Shown here in pieces: positions 1,095 to 16,680 of a stretch of DNA of 20,149 nucleotides. Source of the DNA: a virus; the IMG/VR virus record IMGVR_UViG_3300029319_000683, positions 1 to 20,149 of that record, one strand, 5' to 3'. Made by a program: the position numbers and the translations under genes. The notes beneath the pieces were generated by a model. The model was not told where the DNA came from and made no database searches. It saw only the letters and a list, made by a program, of their open reading frames with translations. Every line of letters begins with the position of its first letter. Position 1 is the first letter of the stretch.

Positions 1095-2066
1095 ATGGCA
1101 AAAAAAGTTGGCATTAACGCTGTAGTCGATGCTGCTGCCAAGCGTTTAAAAAAGATTCGTGACATACCTAATTATCGAGATTCACAAGAGTATAAGGTAT
1201 TAAACGACAAGATAAAACAGCATCAATGGACTACGGACGATAATAATTTTTTAAAACTAGATACTGATGAACAAATAGAAATACATCAACAATTACTGTA
1301 TCATGGTGGAAGTACTAGAACTAAAGTTATTTCTGACATGTTTGAAGACCAACCTTGGATGCAAGACATACCATCAATGGGTAATGTCAACAAAAAAGGT
1401 AAACCTAGTCGTGTAAAAGCAAAACGTGCCTTTGGTAAAATTGAAGACCCTAGTGAAATAGGTTATAACGACGATGTACGTTATAAAGGTACGCAAGCTA
1501 AACAAGCAGCAGACCGAGCATACAATTTAGCTGAAGGCACTACTGGATATGATGCAGTACATACAAGATTAGAAGAACTAGACTCTTATTTAAAAGAAAT
1601 TATCCCAAATTATAACAAGGAAAGTATGTTTAACGAACTGAAACGTTTTAACATTAGAACTGTTAAGGATAAACTTGATAAAATTGCACAAATGAATGCA
1701 GCCCTTAAAGCAAAAGGAATAACAGACCCAGCAGAACTTTATTCTTCTGGACATGGTTATTCTAGAGCTGCTGGCGGTCCTGCTACAGCGCGTAACTATG
1801 GATTTCCAGAATTAGGCAAAGATAACTACAAAACACAGAACAGACAAGATTTATCTAAAGCAGACCTTGAAGAGATAGGTATTGATACATCATGGTCAAT
1901 GTTTGTTGATAGGTATTTAAGTGATGTTCATGCAGCTAATCTTGTACAAAAAACTGATGCTCAAAGATATTTAAAAGATACAGATTTATTAGATATCCTT
2001 TCTAGAAAAATTGATTGGAAAAGTGCTCTAAGCAAGCGTATAGCCGATCAAAACAACACTGTATAG
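1095..2066 (+). CDS. Hypothetical protein upstream of terminase, weak nuclease-like signature
   Basis: This 323-residue protein is of unrecognised family. It is mostly charged and predicted helical, without signal peptide or membrane segments. The N-terminus (1-45) is basic and the middle (about 135-215) looks helical. Residues 219-249 read SGHGYSRAAGG followed by spaced N, E, N and N residues (N234, E239, N244, N249). That spacing loosely recalls His-Me finger (HNH-like) nucleases, where a GH or DH is followed by GG and Asn residues. The match is weak and no zinc-binding cysteines accompany it. The gene ends 8 bases before the terminase start and follows the lysine-rich gene by 6 bases. T7 has its small terminase gp18 just before the large one, but this protein is far longer than gp18, so I do not transfer that name. 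Confidence 0.7.
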   Translation: MAKKVGINAVVDAAAKRLKKIRDIPNYRDSQEYKVLNDKIKQHQWTTDDNNFLKLDTDEQIEIHQQLLYHGGSTRTKVISDMFEDQPWMQDIPSMGNVNKKGKPSRVKAKRAFGKIEDPSEIGYNDDVRYKGTQAKQAADRAYNLAEGTTGYDAVHTRLEELDSYLKEIIPNYNKESMFNELKRFNIRTVKDKLDKIAQMNAALKAKGITDPAELYSSGHGYSRAAGGPATARNYGFPELGKDNYKTQNRQDLSKADLEEIGIDTSWSMFVDRYLSDVHAANLVQKTDAQRYLKDTDLLDILSRKIDWKSALSKRIADQNNTV

Positions 2067-2074
2067 ATTCGTAT

Positions 2075-3805
2075 ATGACCGACGTTTTAACGTCCTTACA
2101 GGGCGATTTTAAGCTGTTTTTACAAGCTTTGTGGGACCAGCTTGATCTACCCTCTCCTACTAGGGCACAATACGCCATTGCAGACTATTTACAATACGGA
2201 CCAAAACGTTTACAGATTCAAGCCTTCCGAGGAGTCGGAAAAAGTTGGATTACTGGAGCGTTTGTGTTGTGGACTCTGTTTAATGACGCAGAAAAAAAGA
2301 TAATGATTATATCAGCTTCTAAGGAAAGAGCTGACAACATGAGTATCTTTTTACAAAAACTTATTATTGAAACACCATGGCTAAGTCACCTACAACCAAA
2401 GAGCGACGACGCGAGATGGTCAAGAATTTCCTTCGACGTTCTATGCTCACCTCATCAGGCACCATCAGTCAAAAGTGTTGGTATTACTGGTCAGTTAACG
2501 GGAAGTCGCGCAGACCTAATGATTCTGGACGACATAGAAGTACCGGGAAACAGTATGACGGAGTTGATGCGTGAAAAATTACTTCAACTTTGTACGGAAG
2601 CCGAGTCAATCCTTACGCCAAAAGACGATAGCCGTATTATGTATCTCGGGACTCCTCAGACTACTTTTACTATTTATCGTAAGCTGGCAAGCAGGAATTA
2701 CAAACCATTTATTTGGACCGCGCGATATCCCAGAAACAATACCCCTTACGAAGGACTTATAGCTCCACAACTACAAGAAGACATAGACAAAGGAGTAACA
2801 CCATGGACACCTACAGATGACAGATTTAGTGAAGATGACCTTGTTGAACGAGAAGCATCTATGGGACGTAGCAACTTTATGTTGCAGTTTATGCTGGATA
2901 CAAGTCTGTCAGACGCTGAAAAGTTTCCTCTCAAAATGGCTGACCTTGTTGTTACTAGCGTTAATCCTACTAAAGCACCCGACAATATCGTATGGTGCTC
3001 AGACCCAAGAAACGTACTCAAAGATTTGCCAACAGTCGGTTTACCGGGAGACTACTTTTACTCACCTATGCAACAACAAGGCGAGTGGACAGATTATCAA
3101 GAAACAATCTGCTCCGTTGACCCCTCCGGTAGAGGAGCCGACGAAACGGCAGCCGCCTACATATCGCAAAAAAATGGCTTACTCTATTTACACGAGATGC
3201 GTGCCTATAGGGATGGGTATTCCGACGGCACCCTGTTGGACATACTAAGAGGTTGTAAAAAATACAACGTAAATACACTCGTAATAGAGTCTAACTTTGG
3301 TGACGGTATAGTAGCAGAATTATTTAAGAAACACTTACAACAGACAAAACAACGTATATTGGTAGAAGAGGTAAGAGCTAATGTTAGAAAAGAAGACAGG
3401 ATTATTGATACTCTCGAGCCTGTGCTTAATCAGCACCGTCTTATTGTTAACAAGTCTGTCATCGAATGGGATTATAACTCCAACAGAGAAGCTCCTCCAG
3501 AAGAAAGGCTTTTATACATGTTGTTCTATCAAATGAGTCGTATGTGTAGACAAAAATATGCAGTTAAGCACGACGATAGGTTAGATTGCCTAGCGCAAGG
3601 CGTAAAATACTACATAGATGCACTGTCTATATCAGCACAGGAACAGATCAAGCTAAGAAAAAGAGAAGAATGGAACGATATACTAGAACAATTTATAGAT
3701 GACCCACAGGCAATGACCAACCATTTGGTACTAGGAATGGACGTAGAGCAGCGTAAAGAGGCTCGAGGTAAGTCTAGCAGCAAAGGCTGTCATACGTGGG
3801 TCTAA
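2075..3805 (+). CDS. terL: Terminase large subunit (T7 gp19-like)
   Basis: This is the DNA packaging motor and headful/concatemer nuclease, 576 residues. The ATPase half shows a Walker A AFRGVGKS (50-57), the hydrophobic Walker B ADLMILDD (146-153, acidic D152/D153) and the coupling motif LGTPQ (191-195). The RNase H-like nuclease half shows ICSVDPSGRGADE (346-357, metal ligand D349), LVIESNFGDG (402-411, E405) and KHDDRLDCLAQG (499-509, D500/D504). Length and motif order match T7 gp19 and cyanopodovirus TerL. The frame extends upstream to an ATG at 2015 inside the preceding gene. I chose the ATG at 2075, which begins 8 bases after that gene's stop and gives a family-like N-terminus. It acts at the portal in the infected cell. 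Confidence 0.95.
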   Translation: MTDVLTSLQGDFKLFLQALWDQLDLPSPTRAQYAIADYLQYGPKRLQIQAFRGVGKSWITGAFVLWTLFNDAEKKIMIISASKERADNMSIFLQKLIIETPWLSHLQPKSDDARWSRISFDVLCSPHQAPSVKSVGITGQLTGSRADLMILDDIEVPGNSMTELMREKLLQLCTEAESILTPKDDSRIMYLGTPQTTFTIYRKLASRNYKPFIWTARYPRNNTPYEGLIAPQLQEDIDKGVTPWTPTDDRFSEDDLVEREASMGRSNFMLQFMLDTSLSDAEKFPLKMADLVVTSVNPTKAPDNIVWCSDPRNVLKDLPTVGLPGDYFYSPMQQQGEWTDYQETICSVDPSGRGADETAAAYISQKNGLLYLHEMRAYRDGYSDGTLLDILRGCKKYNVNTLVIESNFGDGIVAELFKKHLQQTKQRILVEEVRANVRKEDRIIDTLEPVLNQHRLIVNKSVIEWDYNSNREAPPEERLLYMLFYQMSRMCRQKYAVKHDDRLDCLAQGVKYYIDALSISAQEQIKLRKREEWNDILEQFIDDPQAMTNHLVLGMDVEQRKEARGKSSSKGCHTWV

Positions 3806-4266: not shown

Positions 4267-4913
4267 AGCTGTTCTTAGATTCAGCAATTATTAAAGATAT
4301 AGACAGCAGACTAGCATCTGGTGTTATATCAGGCGTGACCACCAACCCTACGCTGATAAAGAAGAGTGGAAAAGACCCTGACGACATATATGCAGATCTT
4401 ATACAAGATATAGGCGTCAAAGACTTATCAATAGAGGTAAACGGACAGTTTGCTGACCAATTAATAGAAAATGGCATTAAATATGGTAAGTTATGGTCGA
4501 ATGAAGCAACTATTAAGCTGCCCTGCACACCAGAGGGTATAAAAGCCTGTAAAACGCTTAGTTACATGGGCATACGAACCAACATGACGTTGGTGTTTAG
4601 CGTGTCACAAGCGATTCTATGCGCGTTAGCGGGCGCATCCTACGTATCACCGTTTGTTGGACGTTTAGACGACAACGGGCACGATGGTATAGGACTAATA
4701 CGTGAAATAGCTAAAGTATACTGTCATAACAGAACAGATACTAAAATACTAGCTGCCAGCATTCGTGATGCTGCTACAGTTGGTAAAGCATTTCAAGCCG
4801 GTGCACATATTTGCACCATACCGCCGAAAGTCTTCGACGATATGTACAAACATGTGCTCACTGATAAAGGACTGTTTCAGTTTATTGTAGACTCAGGACA
4901 GATTAACCCTTAA
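4263..4913 (+). CDS. talC: Transaldolase, TalC / fructose-6-phosphate aldolase type
   Basis: This 216-residue (beta/alpha)8 aldolase is of the short transaldolase family carried by many cyanophages. Visible family features are D6 in the first strand (MKLFLDSA), TTNPTL (26-31), the Schiff-base lysine K85 in IKLPCTPEG, N107 in TNMTLVFS, SPFVGRLDD (129-137) and ASIRDA (165-170). The enzyme moves a dihydroxyacetone unit between sugar phosphates. In cyanophage infection it is thought to push carbon through the pentose phosphate pathway, making NADPH and ribose for nucleotides. A clear ribosome binding site AGGAG (4252-4256) precedes the ATG. The gene is last before the non-coding junction, as in P-SSP7 where talC closes the genome map. 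It is full length with intact active-site residues. Confidence 0.96.
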   Translation: MKLFLDSAIIKDIDSRLASGVISGVTTNPTLIKKSGKDPDDIYADLIQDIGVKDLSIEVNGQFADQLIENGIKYGKLWSNEATIKLPCTPEGIKACKTLSYMGIRTNMTLVFSVSQAILCALAGASYVSPFVGRLDDNGHDGIGLIREIAKVYCHNRTDTKILAASIRDAATVGKAFQAGAHICTIPPKVFDDMYKHVLTDKGLFQFIVDSGQINP

Positions 4914-5039
4914 ATTTTAGCAAAAATGTCTGAAGTGGTATATATAACGTGATGGAATGGACGCAACCCCCGTGGGGGGTATCTAAAACGCAGGCGCGCA
5001 CGCGATCAATTAACGCGCGCCCGTGTCCAATGCGAGTCC

Positions 5040-5153
5040 AGACCGCTCGCTTCGCTCGCTCCATCCTAGTCATACCAAGGGATGTCACGATGTGTAGTAC
5101 TGCCAAGTAGACAGTACTGCCGTTGTGGGAGCGAGGCGCAGCCGAGCGGGTCT
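5040..5153. repeat. Long imperfect inverted repeat with GC-rich arms
   Basis: AGACCGCTCGCTTCGCTCGC (from 5040) continues to CTCC at 5062 and is complementary, with a few bulges, to 5128-5153 (GGAGCGAGGCGCAGCCGAGC then GGGTCT). The 65 bases between the arms contain two smaller hairpins, CATCC/GGATG and AGTACTG/CAGTACT. The latter is embedded in a direct repeat of AGTACTGCC at 5097 and 5113. The whole could fold as a branched RNA or extrude as a cruciform. Confidence 0.6.
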
Positions 5154-5194
5154 AAACATTCGCGACATGCGAGACGCGTGAGACAAGCGATCTG

Positions 5195-5222
5195 TTGCCA
5201 AGTCAAACAACAATAATATACT
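5195..5222 (+). promoter_or_regulatory. Sigma70-type promoter candidate P1
   Basis: TTGCCA (5195-5200) and TATACT (5217-5222) each match the -35 and -10 consensus at five of six positions with a 16-base spacer. The predicted start near 5229 falls within a palindrome. Position ahead of the first early gene fits an early promoter read by host RNA polymerase. Confidence 0.5.
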
Positions 5223-5303: not shown

Positions 5304-5377
5304 AGAGTTGTTTACGTTATGTTATATTCTCTCTCCTAGAATAGGTGAGAGAGATAATATAACTTAACTACAACTCT
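5304..5377 (+). repeat. Long stem-loop ahead of the first early gene
   Basis: The left arm starts AGAGTTGT (5304-5311) and ends GTTATATT-CTCTCTC (to 5335). The right arm runs GAGAGAG-ATAATATAAC to ACAACTCT (5370-5377). The arms pair over about 25 of 32 positions, and the tip can close as CCTA-GAA-TAGG. There is no U-tract. It sits in the leader of the first early gene, 31 bases before its ATG, so it could be an RNase III site, a 5' stabilising hairpin or an attenuator. Confidence 0.6.
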
Positions 5378-5407: not shown

Positions 5408-5716
5408 ATGTTCACTTCAATTCCAAACCCTCGTACATCAGAAGCTGTTGAGGCTATCAACGTTAACCCTTTTACAAGGGTTGTTAACGTCAGGTTCACC
5501 AATGGCTATGAGTACAAGTACTCAAATGTTAGCAGAGCTAAGATTGTTAATCTTATGATTAACCCTAACATGAGCTTCGGGTTCTGGATTCAAGAGCTCA
5601 GCAAGAATGCTGTTAGAGCTCTTAGTTACCTAAGAGGTAACACCGTTGCTACTGGCAAGCTATGCTATGAGCAAACTGGTGTGTCTGCATTCAGAGGTGA
5701 TACACTACCTTTCTAA
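5408..5716 (+). CDS. KTSC-domain-like small early protein
   Basis: This is the first gene of the early block, 102 residues. Residues about 22-65 (TRVVNVRFTNGYEYKYSNV, then a helix ending MSFGFWIQEL) resemble the KTSC domain, a small beta-beta-alpha fold with a V-x-F-x-N-G-x-x-Y-x-Y-x-x-V core and a G-x-x-h-x-x-x-I turn. That domain is common in short phage and bacterial proteins and is sometimes fused to nucleic-acid enzymes. No catalytic residues are evident. Codon use is G/C-richer at third positions than in the late genes. The coding sequence contains an inverted repeat CGTTAAC/GTTAACG (5461-5489). No strong ribosome binding site precedes the ATG; the long hairpin and promoter candidates lie just upstream. 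Early position suggests host take-over, but the function is unknown. Confidence 0.75.
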   Translation: MFTSIPNPRTSEAVEAINVNPFTRVVNVRFTNGYEYKYSNVSRAKIVNLMINPNMSFGFWIQELSKNAVRALSYLRGNTVATGKLCYEQTGVSAFRGDTLPF

Positions 5717-5729
5717 GGTAGTTGTATCT

Positions 5730-5772
5730 AGCGTCTGGGTTTTCACTTGCGGTTCAACTCCGCAAGGACGCT
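5730..5772 (+). ncRNA. tRNA acceptor/T-arm-like hairpin in leader
   Basis: AGCGTC (5730-5735) pairs with GACGCT (5767-5772). Immediately inside on the 3' side, CTTGCGG (5746-5752) pairs with CCGCAAG (5760-5766) around the 7-base loop TTCAACT. The loop fits the tRNA T-loop pattern TTCRANY, and the two 3' strands abut as in a real acceptor/T-stem stack. A 10-base strand (5736-5745) replaces the D and anticodon arms, and no CCA follows. It could be a tRNA relic, a tRNA mimic or a chance hairpin. A second small hairpin TAACCC-TTTA-GGGTTA (5774-5789) follows it. Confidence 0.4.
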
Positions 5773-5816
5773 CTAACCCTTTAGGGTTAATTGTCCACCG
5801 TTACATCCATCCTGTC

Positions 5817-6518
5817 ATGTTTGTCCACATCACCAAAAAATCAAGCAATGCAAAAACAGGCAGAATGCCTGTTACGACTACTGAGTCGAGCTCATGTCCC
5901 ACTACTTGTCCACACATCAACGGAAATTGCTACGCAAAATCTGGATTTCATTTAGCTCAGCATTGGAAAAAAGTCAGCTCTCGAGAGAGAGGTGGTTCTT
6001 GGTCTGAGCTTTGTGACTACGTTAGTAGTCTCAAGCCTCGCCAAATCTGGCGTCATAACCAAGCTGGCGACCTCGGCTATGTAACCGATCAGCAAGGACG
6101 CGAGCTAATCAGACTTGACTTGCTCAAGTCCCTTGTTGACGCTAACAAGTCTAGCAAAGCTAGAGGTTATACTTACACACACCACAAGTTAGATTATTTA
6201 CATAATCTAGAGGCAGTCAAGTATGCCAACAACAACGGCTTCACAGTTAACGCCAGTTGTGAGACTATGTCTCAAGTTGACGACGCCATCGCTCAAGGTA
6301 TTCCGGCGGTAGTTGTCGTAGACAACAGCAAGGACGTACCAACACATACACCAAACAACAATAAAGTTGTTGTCTGTCCAGCTCAAACATCTGATACCAA
6401 CTGCGTTGACTGCGGTCTTTGTGCTCAAGCCAAACGCAAGTGTGCAGTTGCATTCTTAGCTCATGGCAACAGAGCAAAAAAACTTAATCAAACATTGGAG
6501 GCACTACAAAATGGATAA
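5817..6518 (+). CDS. Cysteine-rich phage protein (DUF7227-like), probable metal or Fe-S binding
   Basis: This 233-residue protein resembles a family found in many phages and plasmids and often left unnamed. An N-terminal block SSSCPTTCPHINGNCYAKSG (C27, C31, C38) is followed by RHNQAGD (79-85), a middle part with YTYTHHK, and a C-terminal block with C187, C196, C199, C202 and C209 (CVDCGLCAQAKRKC). The conserved cysteines suggest zinc or an iron-sulfur cluster, and the overall layout has been compared with TIM-barrel, radical-SAM-like folds, but the reaction is unknown. The frame is open from an ATG at 5646 inside the previous gene. I chose the ATG at 5817 because the family begins shortly before the first Cys block and the upstream 100 bases contain a non-coding hairpin. 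Its stop overlaps the next ATG. Confidence 0.8.
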   Translation: MFVHITKKSSNAKTGRMPVTTTESSSCPTTCPHINGNCYAKSGFHLAQHWKKVSSRERGGSWSELCDYVSSLKPRQIWRHNQAGDLGYVTDQQGRELIRLDLLKSLVDANKSSKARGYTYTHHKLDYLHNLEAVKYANNNGFTVNASCETMSQVDDAIAQGIPAVVVVDNSKDVPTHTPNNNKVVVCPAQTSDTNCVDCGLCAQAKRKCAVAFLAHGNRAKKLNQTLEALQNG

Positions 6519-8800: not shown

Positions 8801-11134
8801 ATGTTAACTGAACAACAAATACAAGATCAGCAGGACTACGAGCGTAAACAAATACAAGGAGGCTTACATAAGTTACGTGCTAACACTACAAAGTTAGAAG
8901 AAAAAACCTATGCGAGTGCTACCGTTTATGGCTCAGCATGCGTTAGTTCAATATTGCCTGATCTCATTGCATTCATTGATAGTAAAAAAGAAAAGTATTT
9001 AAGATTTAATGCGGCGAAAGATAAACACATCTTTCACACACATATCTTGCCTAGCGTTACAGAAATACAAGCTTTGCTTACATGCAAGGTTGTGTTTGAC
9101 CATGTGTTTTCTCCACAACAGAAAAAACATAGTGTCACAGTTATTGCTATGGCTATCGGTGCGGCTATTGAAGCTGAAGCACAGATGGAATATTACGACA
9201 AGGAGGCACCCGCCTTATTAACTACGTTAAAAAAGAACTACTGGCACCAATCCAAAGGTACAGAGTACAAACGTAAGTGTATTCAGACATTGATGCACAA
9301 GACAAACATATCCCCTTGGGTACATTGGGATAAAGCAACCAAAGTCAAGGTCGGAACCTTTCTTATGGACTGCCTGATGGAAGTATCAGGGTGGTTCGAG
9401 AGAGATTTAGTGCGTAAAGGTAGAAAAACCATAGCAATATTTGTACCGTCCTCTCTACTTACTAAACAACATGACGAAATCATGCGAATGGCAGAGCTAT
9501 TTAGTCCTCTTGCTAAGCCTATGCTCATTCCTCCCCGTAATTGGCACGCTCTCCAAGATGGCGGTTATTACCTTAACGATTTAACACGTTGTCATCAATT
9601 AGTTAGAAAGGGTAATGACGGGCTTATACAGGGGGAAATACCTTACGAGTTTATTAACAAAATCCAACAAGTTTCTTACAAGCTAAATCCTTTTATAGTA
9701 AAGGTAGCGAAAGACTTAGAGGATAGAGGAATTAGCGTAGGAAAGTTTAGACCTGTTATTCAACATGATATCCCTCCAAAGCCTCCAGAAGAGGCAAGCA
9801 AGGAGGTATGGAAGAGTTGGAAAAAAGAAGCAACGATAGCTAGAAACTTGCAGGCGGCTGAAGTACGTAAGTCCTGCCGAACTCGTATGACTATGGAAGT
9901 AGTACGAGAGTTTGAAGATGAGGTATTTTATATACCTTGGAGTTTTGACTATCGTGGTAGAGCATATCCAATACCTAGTTTACTTACACCACAAGACACA
10001 GACTTTGGAAAAAGTTTAATTTTATTCAACGAAGGTGCTAAGATAACTAAGAAGGGTATGGATTGGATAAAGTTCCAACTTGCTACAACGTATGGTTTAG
10101 ACAAAGCAACCATGCAAGAAAGGTTGGAATGGATAGAAAACGGAGAGAACAGAGAGCTAGTACATCGTGTTTGGTCTGACCCTGTTGGTAACATTGCTGA
10201 CTGGGAAAATGCAGACGAGCCATGGTTATTCTTAGCCGCATGTGTAGAATGGTACGAGTTGTATTACGAGCATCGCTCTCACACACATCTGCCAGTCGCG
10301 GTAGACGCTACATGTAGTGGTCTACAGATTCTCGCCGGTCTCGCCAAAGACGCGTCCACTGCTCGTATGGTAAACGTCATAGGGAGTGAAAAACCCCAAG
10401 ATGCTTATGCAACTATTGCATCAAAAAGCATGGACGCAATCCCTGATCGGCTAAAACCCCACTGGGATAGAAAGGTGACGAAGCGTTGTGTGATGACCAT
10501 ACCATACAATGCCAAGCCTTTCTCTAATCGTTCTTATATCAGGGACGCATTCAAAGACAAGGGAGTAGACGTAGACAAAGAAGAGTTGACACAATGCGTA
10601 AAAGCTGTACGATCTGCCATGAACGAGGTAGTTCCGGGAGCTATGAGCGTAATGAAATGGATTGAACAAGAAGTAGCACGAGCTATAAAAGCTGGAGCTG
10701 GTGAAATCAGATGGACAACCCCATCAGGTTTCAATGTTAAGCAAAAGTTAATGAAGTATAAGTCAACTGTTATACGAACACAATTAATGGGTAGGTGTGA
10801 GATACACATAGCCGGAGCTGAAACAGGTGTTGATCTAAATCATCACAAAAATGCTACTGCACCTAATCTAATACATTCATTAGATGCTAGTTTGTTACAC
10901 CTTGCTACAACATCCACTAACTTTCCCATTGCATTAATACATGATAGTGTATTATGTAGAGCTACAGACATGTGCAAGCTATCGAGCCTTGTACGTAAGA
11001 CTTACATGCACCTGTTCGCAGAGCATGAACCCCTAACCGACTTCGCCCTAGCAATAGGAGCTGAAGAACAACCACCGATTATTGGCGACCTTAAACCGGA
11101 AGCTGTAATTGATTCACAATATTTTTTCTGTTAA
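8801..11134 (+). CDS. Single-subunit DNA-directed RNA polymerase (T7 gp1-like)
   Basis: This 777-residue enzyme transcribes the phage middle and late genes in the host cytoplasm. Catalytic landmarks line up with T7: DYRGRAYP (383-390, T7 DWRGRVY region), VDATCSGLQ with catalytic D502 (T7 D537), R557 and K561 with Y569 in RKVTKRCVMTIPYNAK (T7 R627, K631, Y639, the same spacings), and IHDSVL with H714 and D715 (T7 H811, D812). It is shorter than T7 (883), mostly in the N-terminal promoter-binding half, as in other cyanopodoviruses. The C-terminus is YFFC rather than the FAFA 'foot' of T7. The start has no strong ribosome binding site but follows the upstream ORF by 6 bases. The last base of its TAA begins the SSB ATG. 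Its promoters could not be identified from sequence. Confidence 0.97.
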   Translation: MLTEQQIQDQQDYERKQIQGGLHKLRANTTKLEEKTYASATVYGSACVSSILPDLIAFIDSKKEKYLRFNAAKDKHIFHTHILPSVTEIQALLTCKVVFDHVFSPQQKKHSVTVIAMAIGAAIEAEAQMEYYDKEAPALLTTLKKNYWHQSKGTEYKRKCIQTLMHKTNISPWVHWDKATKVKVGTFLMDCLMEVSGWFERDLVRKGRKTIAIFVPSSLLTKQHDEIMRMAELFSPLAKPMLIPPRNWHALQDGGYYLNDLTRCHQLVRKGNDGLIQGEIPYEFINKIQQVSYKLNPFIVKVAKDLEDRGISVGKFRPVIQHDIPPKPPEEASKEVWKSWKKEATIARNLQAAEVRKSCRTRMTMEVVREFEDEVFYIPWSFDYRGRAYPIPSLLTPQDTDFGKSLILFNEGAKITKKGMDWIKFQLATTYGLDKATMQERLEWIENGENRELVHRVWSDPVGNIADWENADEPWLFLAACVEWYELYYEHRSHTHLPVAVDATCSGLQILAGLAKDASTARMVNVIGSEKPQDAYATIASKSMDAIPDRLKPHWDRKVTKRCVMTIPYNAKPFSNRSYIRDAFKDKGVDVDKEELTQCVKAVRSAMNEVVPGAMSVMKWIEQEVARAIKAGAGEIRWTTPSGFNVKQKLMKYKSTVIRTQLMGRCEIHIAGAETGVDLNHHKNATAPNLIHSLDASLLHLATTSTNFPIALIHDSVLCRATDMCKLSSLVRKTYMHLFAEHEPLTDFALAIGAEEQPPIIGDLKPEAVIDSQYFFC
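9608..9624 (+). repeat. 17-bp direct repeat, copy B (in RNA polymerase gene)
   Basis: Identical to 3804-3820 just after terL. Here it encodes residues around KGNDGL (270-275) of the RNA polymerase and is followed by TATACAGGGGG. Confidence 0.6.
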
Positions 11135-14846: not shown

Positions 14847-14949
14847 GCTGGATAAACTAAAAAAACCAAACCCACCCAGTAAACAAGCTAAAAAGAGAGC
14901 AAAGTTTAAGGATAAAACCTATGTCGCAAAGCCAAATGCTCGTCTTTGA
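14803..14949 (+). CDS. Small basic protein bridging helicase and polymerase genes, 48 aa
   Basis: This frame starts 44 bases before the primase-helicase stop and ends 29 bases into the exonuclease part of the polymerase, covering the 74-base gap between them. The product is polar and basic, with LDKLKKPNPPSKQAKKRAKF in the middle, and reads like a real small protein. I have a weak memory of similar short ORFs between these genes in related marine phages. It could affect the replisome, but this is inferred from position only. Confidence 0.55.
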   Translation: MKLRTQFSIPAQTSELDKLKKPNPPSKQAKKRAKFKDKTYVAKPNARL

Positions 14950-15454
14950 TTGCGAAACTAACGGACTATTACATGACGTTTCTGAGGTACACTGCATTGC
15001 CATATACGACGCCAAAAAAGAAGAGACGTTCGTATTTAATAATCAACCTAGTAACACCTACCCAATCACGGAAGGTTTGCATTGGCTCACCTCTGCTGAT
15101 GTCATCGTTGGTCATAATATTATTGGCTACGATTTACCTGTTCTTCGGAAAATTTATCCTTGGTTTGAGTATAGTGGCACTATTATTGATACTCTTGTGT
15201 TATCTAGGAATTACCATCCAAATATGATGGAGATAGATAAGAAAAGAAATGTACCAAGAATGCCACTCCAACTTTATGGTCGCCATAGCTTAGAAGCATA
15301 TGGTTACAGATTAGGAGAATACAAAGGAGAGTTTGGTAAAACAAGTGACTGGAGTGAATGGTCACAAGAAATGCAGGATTACTGCGTACAAGATGTAAAA
15401 GTTACCACCAAATTATGCGAACACTTCCGCCCTTACATGACGCGGATAGGTTAG
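14921..15454 (+). CDS. DNA polymerase, 3'-5' exonuclease part (T7 gp5-like)
   Basis: These 177 residues correspond to the proofreading domain of a family A polymerase. Exo I is VFDCETNG (8-15, D10 and E12), Exo II GHNIIGYDLPV (64-74, N66 and D71), and Exo III YCVQDVKVT (154-162, Y154 and D158). Frame A ends with a TAG at 15452-15454, immediately after CEHFRPYMTRIG. The homologous continuation (ADRLEHRVAEIL and onward) is encoded from about 15436 in the frame one base back. In T7 the two parts are one chain. So this is either a real split gene, a frameshifted product, or a single-base sequence error, for example in the CCC run at 15430-15432. Both domain sequences are otherwise intact. Confidence 0.9.
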   Translation: MSQSQMLVFDCETNGLLHDVSEVHCIAIYDAKKEETFVFNNQPSNTYPITEGLHWLTSADVIVGHNIIGYDLPVLRKIYPWFEYSGTIIDTLVLSRNYHPNMMEIDKKRNVPRMPLQLYGRHSLEAYGYRLGEYKGEFGKTSDWSEWSQEMQDYCVQDVKVTTKLCEHFRPYMTRIG

Positions 15455-16680
15455 AACACCGCGTCGCAGAAATACTAACAGAACAAGAAATACATGGATG
15501 GACATTTGACGAACAGAAAAGTCAGCAACTTGAGTCACATCTCAGAAGAGAGATGGAAGAACTTGTTGAAGTACTTCGGGGACAATTCCCTGTCGTTGGA
15601 GGAGCGTTGTTCACTCCTAAACGAGATAACTCTACACAAGGATATAAAGAAGGAGCAACCTTCCAAAGACTAAAAGAGTTCAACCCAACATCACGAGACC
15701 ATATAGCATGGATACTGACGACACATTTCAAAGTCAAATTGAGCAAGATCACTACGACTGGGAAACCAATTATCGACGAGATTACATTGACGGAGATAAA
15801 TATTCCCTTCTCGAAAGCATGTGCGAAATGTTTGACGATAAAGAAGAAACTTGGAATGATATCCGAAGGCGTGAACGCATGGAACAGGCTTGTTACGACT
15901 AAAGGCAGAATCCACCACAACTGCTCGGTTAGTACGAACACATTTAGATGTGCTCATCGTAAACCGAATTTAGCGCAAGTTCCTGCGGATAAAGAATTTA
16001 GAGAACTATTTACAGCCAGCCCACGTATGGTAATGGTGGGTGCAGACTTGAGTGGTATTGAACTGCGAATGCTTGCACATTACCTTGGCAGATATGACGG
16101 AGGTCGATATGCCGACATATTACTGAATGATGATATACATCAAGTTAACGCTGATAAAATAGGTATCACTCGCCGACAAGTTAAGACCGTGACATACGCC
16201 TTCTTGTACGGTGCAGGCAATGAAAAATTAGGAATGAGTTATGATAACTCTTTACAACCCAAGGAAGCCCGTAAAAAGGGACAAGAGATTAGAGAGGCTT
16301 ACGTATCTGCAATCGAAGGACTCAGTGACTTACTGGGAGCGGTTTCAAATAAGGCTACTAACGGTTACCTCTTGGCATTGGACGGACGAAGGGTGTTGGT
16401 CGATTCACCGCACAAAGCATTAAACTATTTACTACAATGCTCGGCAGGAATTGTTGCAAAGCGTTGGATGGTAATAGCTAACGATGCTATACATAATCCT
16501 CACACACATCAACTAGCATTCGTACACGACGAATTGCAGTATGAAACACCAGAAGAAGATGTTACAAATTTAATGAATCTTCTAGAAAAAGCAGCAGAAC
16601 TAGCTGGCGAATACTACGATTTACGTTGTCCTATCGCTGCCGAAGCAAAGCAAGGCAAAACGTGGGCTGACGTACATTAA
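15415..16680 (+). CDS. DNA polymerase, polymerase domain (T7 gp5-like)
   Basis: This is the nucleotide-adding domain of the family A polymerase. Motif A is GADLSGIELRMLAH, motif B RRQVKTVTYAFLYGAG and motif C FVHDELQ, each close to T7 (DASGLELR, RDNAKTFIYGFLYGAG and VHDEIQ). The domain-typical RLEHRVAEILTEQEIHGWTF opens it and AEAKQGKTWADVH closes it. The frame is open from an ATG at 15358; an ATG at 15415 (MRTLPPLHDADRLEHR) is nearer to the domain boundary, giving 421 residues and a 40-base overlap with the exonuclease frame. Neither ATG has a ribosome binding site, which argues against independent translation. Exonuclease plus this part total about 590 residues, suggesting that nothing is missing beyond the frame change. 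The thioredoxin-binding loop of T7 is shortened. Confidence 0.9.
   Translation: MRTLPPLHDADRLEHRVAEILTEQEIHGWTFDEQKSQQLESHLRREMEELVEVLRGQFPVVGGALFTPKRDNSTQGYKEGATFQRLKEFNPTSRDHIAWILTTHFKVKLSKITTTGKPIIDEITLTEINIPFSKACAKCLTIKKKLGMISEGVNAWNRLVTTKGRIHHNCSVSTNTFRCAHRKPNLAQVPADKEFRELFTASPRMVMVGADLSGIELRMLAHYLGRYDGGRYADILLNDDIHQVNADKIGITRRQVKTVTYAFLYGAGNEKLGMSYDNSLQPKEARKKGQEIREAYVSAIEGLSDLLGAVSNKATNGYLLALDGRRVLVDSPHKALNYLLQCSAGIVAKRWMVIANDAIHNPHTHQLAFVHDELQYETPEEDVTNLMNLLEKAAELAGEYYDLRCPIAAEAKQGKTWADVH

Follow-up and report, generated by a model that had tools for sequence, protein, structure and literature searches.

The GC-rich hairpin cluster at 4941-5189 of the window (the whole 20,149-nt stretch of viral DNA analyzed here) is very probably the direct terminal repeat (DTR), or concatemer junction, of a T7-like Prochlorococcus phage, and what had appeared as an odd group of hairpins becomes a predicted genome end. 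As a repeat it is of an ordinary kind; its boundary is cleanly marked by two motifs, and ATCTGT is strikingly avoided on one strand. We describe its position, its homology to a sequenced repeat and its boundary motifs, together with the avoidance of this polymerase terminator hexamer on a single strand, which is very strong.

Position and composition of the predicted terminal repeat

By megablast the whole 20,149-nt stretch is a T7-like phage whose best relative is Prochlorococcus phage P-GSP1 (genus Lingvirus), which covered 79% of the window at 88.8% identity, and on this comparison we place it as a T7-like cyanophage near P-GSP1. The GC-rich segment lies between talC (end at 4913) and the first early ORF (start at 5408), and hence in the position of a T7-like DTR, between the terminase and last late gene on one side and the first early gene on the other. 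In P-SSP7, Sabehi and Lindell reported a 206-bp direct repeat from ends sequenced from phage particles (PMC3350473), and when the two are compared side by side this sequenced DTR occupies the place equivalent to that of the window segment, within the same gene order of terminase, talC, DTR and early genes. The window contains one junction only, the second repeat copy and the physical ends lying outside its view; assemblers are reported to close DTR genomes of this sort into circles (PMC3350473).

The preliminary description of this DNA had marked a GC-rich, branched-fold segment at 4952-5160 and had offered three readings of it, namely a structured non-coding RNA, a packaging or replication signal, or a mobile palindromic element acquired from a bacterium. 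The segment is genuine and the element is slightly larger, at 4941-5189. The sharp difference in composition was confirmed, with a GC content of 0.58 over 4943-5189 versus 0.32 in the following 220 bases, and the stems named there are all present, including the long arms in the predicted fold. The packaging reading is the one borne out, as a predicted DTR and concatemer junction, by the position of the P-SSP7 repeat and by the boundary motifs. The features used below are as follows.

2015-3805, plus strand: ORF of the terminase large subunit (DNA maturase beta), the presumed nuclease
4915-4940, plus strand: left-boundary box TTTTAGCAAAAATGTCTGA (4915-4933) plus 7 nt, stopping at the predicted left cut
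4941-5189, no strand assigned: predicted DTR of 249 bp, concatemer/assembly junction, from the two boundary rules and from homology and synteny with the P-SSP7 DTR
4966-4980, no strand assigned: hairpin of a C-run and a G-run, ACCCCC-GTG-GGGGGT, lying about 25 nt in from the left cut
4993-5021, no strand assigned: element ATCAATTAACG, found in reverse orientation in many relatives, enclosed by the stem GGCGCGC/GCGCGCC
5042-5150, no strand assigned: long arms CCGCTCGCTTCGCTCGCTCC (about 5042-5062) and GGAGCGAGGCGCAGCCGAGCGG (about 5128-5150) of the predicted fold
5096-5118, no strand assigned: hairpin AGTACTG/CAGTACT; a stem here is also among the pairs of the 23-segment alignment fold
5187-5199, plus strand: right-boundary box, GCG followed directly after the predicted cut by ATCTGTTGCC, with the predicted phage RNA polymerase pause site ATCTGTT at 5190-5196
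8801-11134, plus strand: ORF of the T7-like single-subunit RNA polymerase, the presumed reader of the pause site

Elsewhere in the window, the DNA polymerase is seemingly split into two overlapping ORFs (14921-15454 and 15358-16680), as it is annotated in P-SSP7. ARAGORN called a 93-nt tRNA-Arg (tct) at 5681-5773, overlapping the early ORFs 5408-5716 and 5646-6518, and this may be a false call or an unannotated tRNA-like element.

Boundary motifs in sequenced repeats and in relatives

Eight records with identical ends were available for comparison, with repeats of 160 bp (T7), 174 bp (SP6), 180 bp (S-SBP1), 206 bp (P-SSP7), 216 bp (gh-1), 231 bp (T3), 237 bp (Syn5) and 414 bp (phiKMV), all lengths being those of the identical ends in the deposited records and the end-mapping method being known for P-SSP7 only. 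The 249-bp repeat of the window falls within this range of 160-414 bp and shares boundary motifs with these records, from which its cuts are predicted to lie before 4941 and after 5189. At the left end, a box resembling TTTTGRCANAAATNTSTGA followed by 7 nt runs precisely up to the boundary in P-SSP7, Syn5 and S-SBP1; judged by eye, a TCTGA-containing box plus 7 nt stands at the left cut of T7, T3 and gh-1, while SP6 has no clear left box. At the right end, the bases directly after the repeat are ATCTGTT in T7, T3 and Syn5, ATCTGTC in S-SBP1 and ACCTGTT in P-SSP7. In SP6, ATCTGTT begins one base earlier than in these records, and in gh-1, ATCTGTC forms the last 7 bases of the repeat with a second ATCTGT 3 nt beyond it. 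No ATCTGT is found at the repeat end of phiKMV, and the HTVC011P record has no terminal repeat; gh-1, phiKMV and HTVC011P each carry one plus-strand ATCTGTT, those of gh-1 and phiKMV lying away from the repeat end.

The closest likeness is to P-SSP7, which has the left box, a C-run hairpin 26 nt in, and GCG then CTGTTGC at the right end, and which differs from the window in reading ACCTGTT rather than ATCTGTT, in its length of 206 versus 249 bp and in its interior modules. By eye, P-SSP7, P-GSP1, P-SSP2 and P-SSP3 all share with the window the left-end C-run hairpin and, at the right end, CG, the cut and A(T/C)CTGTTGC. The T7 and T3 junctions have, by eye, the TCTGA-type left box plus 7 nt; ATCTGTT forms the first bases after their right end, and T7 carries CCCCCATAGGGGG at 26-38 near its left end, resembling the C-run hairpin of the window; in contrast, their interior sequence is unrelated by eye, and ATCTGT is avoided less strictly, with 3 copies on the transcribed strand in T7 and 5 in T3. 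Syn5 and S-SBP1 resemble the window in the left box at the left cut, in ATCTGTT or ATCTGTC at the right cut and in a single ATCTGT on the transcribed strand, whereas they lack a perfect C/G hairpin and differ in the interior. Since Syn5, T3 and S-SBP1 keep a C-run at that place without a perfect C/G palindrome, pairing of the C-run is common and not obligatory.

In order to sample relatives, IMG/VR was scanned with the early ORF (45 loci), with TalC (59 loci) and with an 18-nt right-end pattern (4 loci). Removal of 4 loci shorter than 150 bases and of 41 lying within others reduced the 106 loci with a usable region to 61 regions; these include the window's own copy (L001) and the named phages, and near-identical regions were kept. 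The left box was present in 55 of 58 family loci, the remaining three being too short upstream, and both boundaries were found in 52 of the 58, with DTR lengths of 193-289 bp (median 260). A C-run stood 24-26 nt past the left cut in all 55 left-box loci and was palindromic in 52. In a count anchored on the motif itself, the right-boundary motif was present in 55 of 61 regions (47 ATCTGTT, 7 ATCTGTC and 1 ACCTGTT); the others are L004, which is the P-SSP7 record end, L060, L074 and L097, which stop before or at the motif, L052, which begins beyond it, and L107, distantly related by TalC, in which the motif is lacking. The predicted right cut is precisely where L097 ends, and L047 begins 4 nt from the predicted left cut; contig ends were dropped as proof of physical ends, other contigs stopping elsewhere.

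Among complete genomes, the left-box regular expression occurs once per genome, on the plus strand, in 8 of 8 cyanophages, although in its strict form it misses the window (A for G at the fifth base), T7, T3, SP6 and gh-1. In P-GSP1 the left box reads like TTGACA..TATAAT. A sigma-70 promoter was considered and rejected for the window, where a pattern scan shows no site there; we treat the sequence as a boundary box and not a promoter because it ends at the cut in the sequenced repeats. The two-motif rule predicts both ends of T7-like cyanophage genomes and places repeats of 175 bp in NATL1A-7 and 221 bp in S-CBP4, in addition to the following.

P-GSP1, HQ332140.1 13169-13397, minus strand: predicted DTR from the boundary rules, 229 bp
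P-SSP2, GU071107.1 6569-6791: predicted DTR from the boundary rules, 223 bp
P60, NC_003390.2 43096-43325: predicted DTR from the boundary rules, 230 bp

Judged by its two boundary motifs, the deposited P60 record (NC_003390.2, 43070-43332) is rotated, with the genome end predicted at about 43325, inside the annotated gp51. In a further relative, contig IMGVR_UViG_3300031785_000008 (L041), about 0.6 kb of extra, possibly coding sequence lies between talC and the DTR (about 850-1460). The gene-free leaders of P-SSP7 (L003, 430-660) and P-SSP3 (L006) share the short blocks TTAAGTAGCTCG and AAAACGTAAC; by eye, a sequence like the T-arm of a tRNA closes the P-SSP7 leader, which is a possible non-coding RNA.

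Folding of the hairpins and the question of dispersed copies

The strength of the fold in the window copy is what recommends a structured non-coding RNA, either a 3' UTR or a small RNA made from the intergenic region between talC and the early genes, which late or early transcripts could indeed cross. Folded as RNA, the 209-base segment reaches -94.6 kcal/mol on the plus strand (z -5.07) and -92.6 kcal/mol on the minus strand (z -4.00); on neither strand did any of 200 shuffles reach this stability, and the window copy thus beats its shuffled controls in the first check that the preliminary description had proposed. The two strands fold about equally well, however, which argues against an RNA, and the result weakens in relatives. 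Across 41 homologous segments (representatives of 54, with 40 shuffles each), the mean z was only -2.07 on the plus strand and -1.82 on the minus strand, with 18 of 41 below -2 on the plus strand, and the window is therefore an extreme case in fold strength. The covariation check proposed at the same time gave little: RNAalifold on the 23 main-type segments, the 18 other-type representatives being folded singly only, returned a consensus of -14.68 kcal/mol with 21 pairs, one of which showed a two-sided change, and pairing of the two long arms was absent from this alignment fold. A branched RNA is unsupported by the folds of the 41 segments and by the 23-segment alignment. A marked excess of perfect hairpins was likewise rejected; perfect stems of at least 6 pairs were mildly in excess (mean 1.54 versus 0.95 per segment), and their count was reached by at least 3 of 30 shuffles in 34 of the 41 segments.

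The orientation of short elements in the relatives also bears upon this reading. Among the 41 segments, 10 had ATCAAT[TC]AACG in forward orientation alone, 16 had it reversed alone and 15 lacked it; AACAAT[TC]AACG was forward in 5, reversed in 8 and absent in 28; and AGTVATWSCA was forward in 31, reversed in 3 and absent in 7. Of eight short elements tested, these two related AT-rich loops and AGTVATWSCA occur in both orientations and four occur in one only, which rules out a general inversion of loops, and GTACTGTC, at 19 to 4 by orientation, is nearly palindromic and hence uninformative. Where a loop is flipped within a GC-rich stem, this would suggest hairpins of DNA rather than of RNA. Together with 0 Rfam matches at gathering scores in the whole window, the inverted loops and the weak whole-segment folds in many relatives make a structured non-coding RNA highly improbable.

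In the region downstream of the segment the mean z was -4.31 (39 measured), probably due to a conserved hairpin there. A long conserved hairpin (..TTATATTCTCTCTCC..GGTGAGAGAGATAATATAA..) lies at 5316-5368, ahead of the first early ORF, with sequence changes in P-SSP2, P-SSP3, P-SSP7 and many relatives, and is probably a leader element of the early transcript.

That the segment is instead a mobile, REP-like palindromic element from a bacterium, lodged in the intergenic region, draws on the recurrence of its 20-nt arm, which is present in 79 genome stretches of unrelated organisms in scattered phyla and in 90 viral-contig stretches, including this phage family, and on the variation of interior modules between relatives. 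None of the titles of the 79 stretches, found by scanning genome contigs with this 20-nt arm, names Prochlorococcus; of the suggested search of host genomes for the repeat, the analysis covered this arm scan. In addition, the 209-bp segment has a single copy in its own 20-kb record, and a blastn search of 8 complete cyanophage genomes with the DTR as query gave matches in the predicted DTRs of P-GSP1 and P-SSP2 alone, with no dispersed copies outside predicted DTRs. The arm motif occurs once each in P-GSP1 and NATL1A-7, inside the predicted DTR, and 0 times in the other six genomes, and the boundaries of the segment are the same as those of sequenced DTRs. The fixed position in IMG/VR relatives is no test of mobility because most of these relatives were fetched by their flanking genes. 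Taken together, these results leave a mobile element with hardly any probability.

One-strand loss of ATCTGT and proposed polymerase pausing

ATCTGTT has one plus-strand copy in the window (5190) and four copies on the other strand; ATCTGT likewise has a single plus-strand copy. Across ten T7-like genomes (P-GSP1, P-SSP7, P-SSP2, Syn5, T7, NATL1A-7, S-SBP1, S-CBP4, P60 and T3), ATCTGTT was found 6 times on the transcribed strand versus 27.0 expected and 87 times on the other versus 73.2 expected, with at most one transcribed-strand copy per genome; its ratio of observed to expected is the fourth lowest among the 210 orderings of its letters. All six copies stand at the junction, as placed by identical ends in T7, T3 and Syn5, by homology in P-GSP1 and P-SSP2 and by prediction in P60. 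In the 8 cyanophages the shorter ATCTGT occurs once on the transcribed strand in 7 of 8, is absent in P-SSP7, and occurs 20-50 times on the other strand of each genome; all seven copies sit at known or predicted junctions. Pooled over the transcribed strands, 7 copies were observed versus 89.0 expected, the lowest ratio among the 3,713 hexamers whose expected count exceeds 40; by z-score ATCTGT ranks second (-8.69) after TAAGCT (-8.95). The other strands of these 8 genomes hold 255 copies.

This depletion extends to coding sequence. In predicted plus-strand ORFs of the 8 cyanophages (stop to stop, at least 240 bases), ATCTGT occurs 2 times, in the junction copies of Syn5 and P60, versus a codon-shuffle mean of 55.5, a null that is imperfect because the complement ACAGAT exceeds it (235 versus 153). 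The corresponding ORF counts and shuffle means are 2 and 6.3 in T7, 3 and 4.5 in T3, 4 and 7.9 in SP6, 4 and 4.4 in gh-1, 4 and 3.9 in phiKMV, and 2 and 5.2 in HTVC011P, and strict avoidance is limited to the cyanophages among the genomes counted; the window, with 0 versus 2.1, is too short to give a signal alone. Loss from one strand fits a transcription signal and not a restriction site. In the literature covered, mainly titles and abstracts with few subscription papers, we found no published account of ATCTGT being avoided on one strand or marking the genome ends of cyanophages.

ATCTGTT is the class II terminator motif of T7 RNA polymerase, and in T7 the pause aids formation of the end. 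Pausing in T7 is reportedly the subject of work by Lyakhov et al. in 1998 (J. Mol. Biol.). In the window the motif lies at 5190-5196 on the non-template strand. Both T7 and Syn5 polymerases are described as giving terminated products on a template bearing ATCTGTT, with the terminated ends mapped by 3'-RACE for T7 polymerase only (PMC9624206). A T-run downstream of the motif is described as a standard terminator feature (PMC11617373); no T-run follows the motif in the window (ATCTGTTGCCAAGTC, 5190-5204) or at T7's own junction (ATCTGTTACAGTCTC), and therefore a pause and not full termination is to be expected.

On this basis, late in infection the phage RNA polymerase would transcribe rightward through talC and the DTR of the concatemer and would pause at ATCTGTT just beyond the right end of the repeat. 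The paused complex, one per genome and directly after the terminal repeat, would mark the right-end cut (after 5189) for terminase, and the left end would be made at the left box by a cut before 4941. Other transcribed-strand copies of ATCTGT would have been purged, as each would pause the polymerase or mis-mark the cut, and the GC-rich hairpins would belong to the repeat as DNA, their overall RNA fold not being conserved. We regard the pausing step as somewhat more likely than not, the avoidance on the transcribed strand giving it indirect support; the cuts in this phage, pausing by its own polymerase and a part of the pause in cutting are inferred. We lean, with slightly less assurance, toward the broader view that in marine T7-like cyanophages the ATCTGT pause hexamer doubles as a genome-end address, selection keeping one transcribed-strand copy per ~45-kb genome. 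Syn5 is reported to have only two promoters for its own polymerase, which a T7 stem-loop terminator does not obviously halt (PMC3950665). The constraint is perhaps stricter than in T7 owing to very few phage promoters; with few promoters stray pauses would be costly, which may explain the stricter avoidance.

The same DTR could be marked in another way, with ATCTGT kept as a recognition sequence of the terminase and no polymerase pausing there. The motif does adjoin the cut, and the R173C mutant of T7 polymerase is described as insensitive to class II sites (PMC9624206) while R173 itself is not conserved, other residues standing in the polymerases of the window, P-SSP7, Syn5, P60 and S-SBP1 in an alignment that is weak there. 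A repeat without pausing also gains some weight because the codon-shuffle null is imperfect and because gh-1 and phiKMV do not conform. A terminase site does not readily explain the loss from one strand, however (7 versus 255 copies in the 8 cyanophages), and the terminated products of Syn5 polymerase on the ATCTGTT-bearing template also count against it. We therefore consider a terminase site without pausing unlikely.

If the proposed double role of ATCTGT is true, the lone copy would let genome ends be read off any assembled sequence. The coupling of transcription pausing to packaging becomes directly testable beyond the T7 group. Six IMG/VR contigs of the family, 30-47 kb long and previously examined only around their junctions, each carry a single ATCTGT on one strand versus 34-44 copies on the other, whereas a control word, the motif read backwards, occurs 3-7 times on one strand and 16-27 on the other in the same contigs. 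The lone ATCTGT is the junction in 6 of 6.
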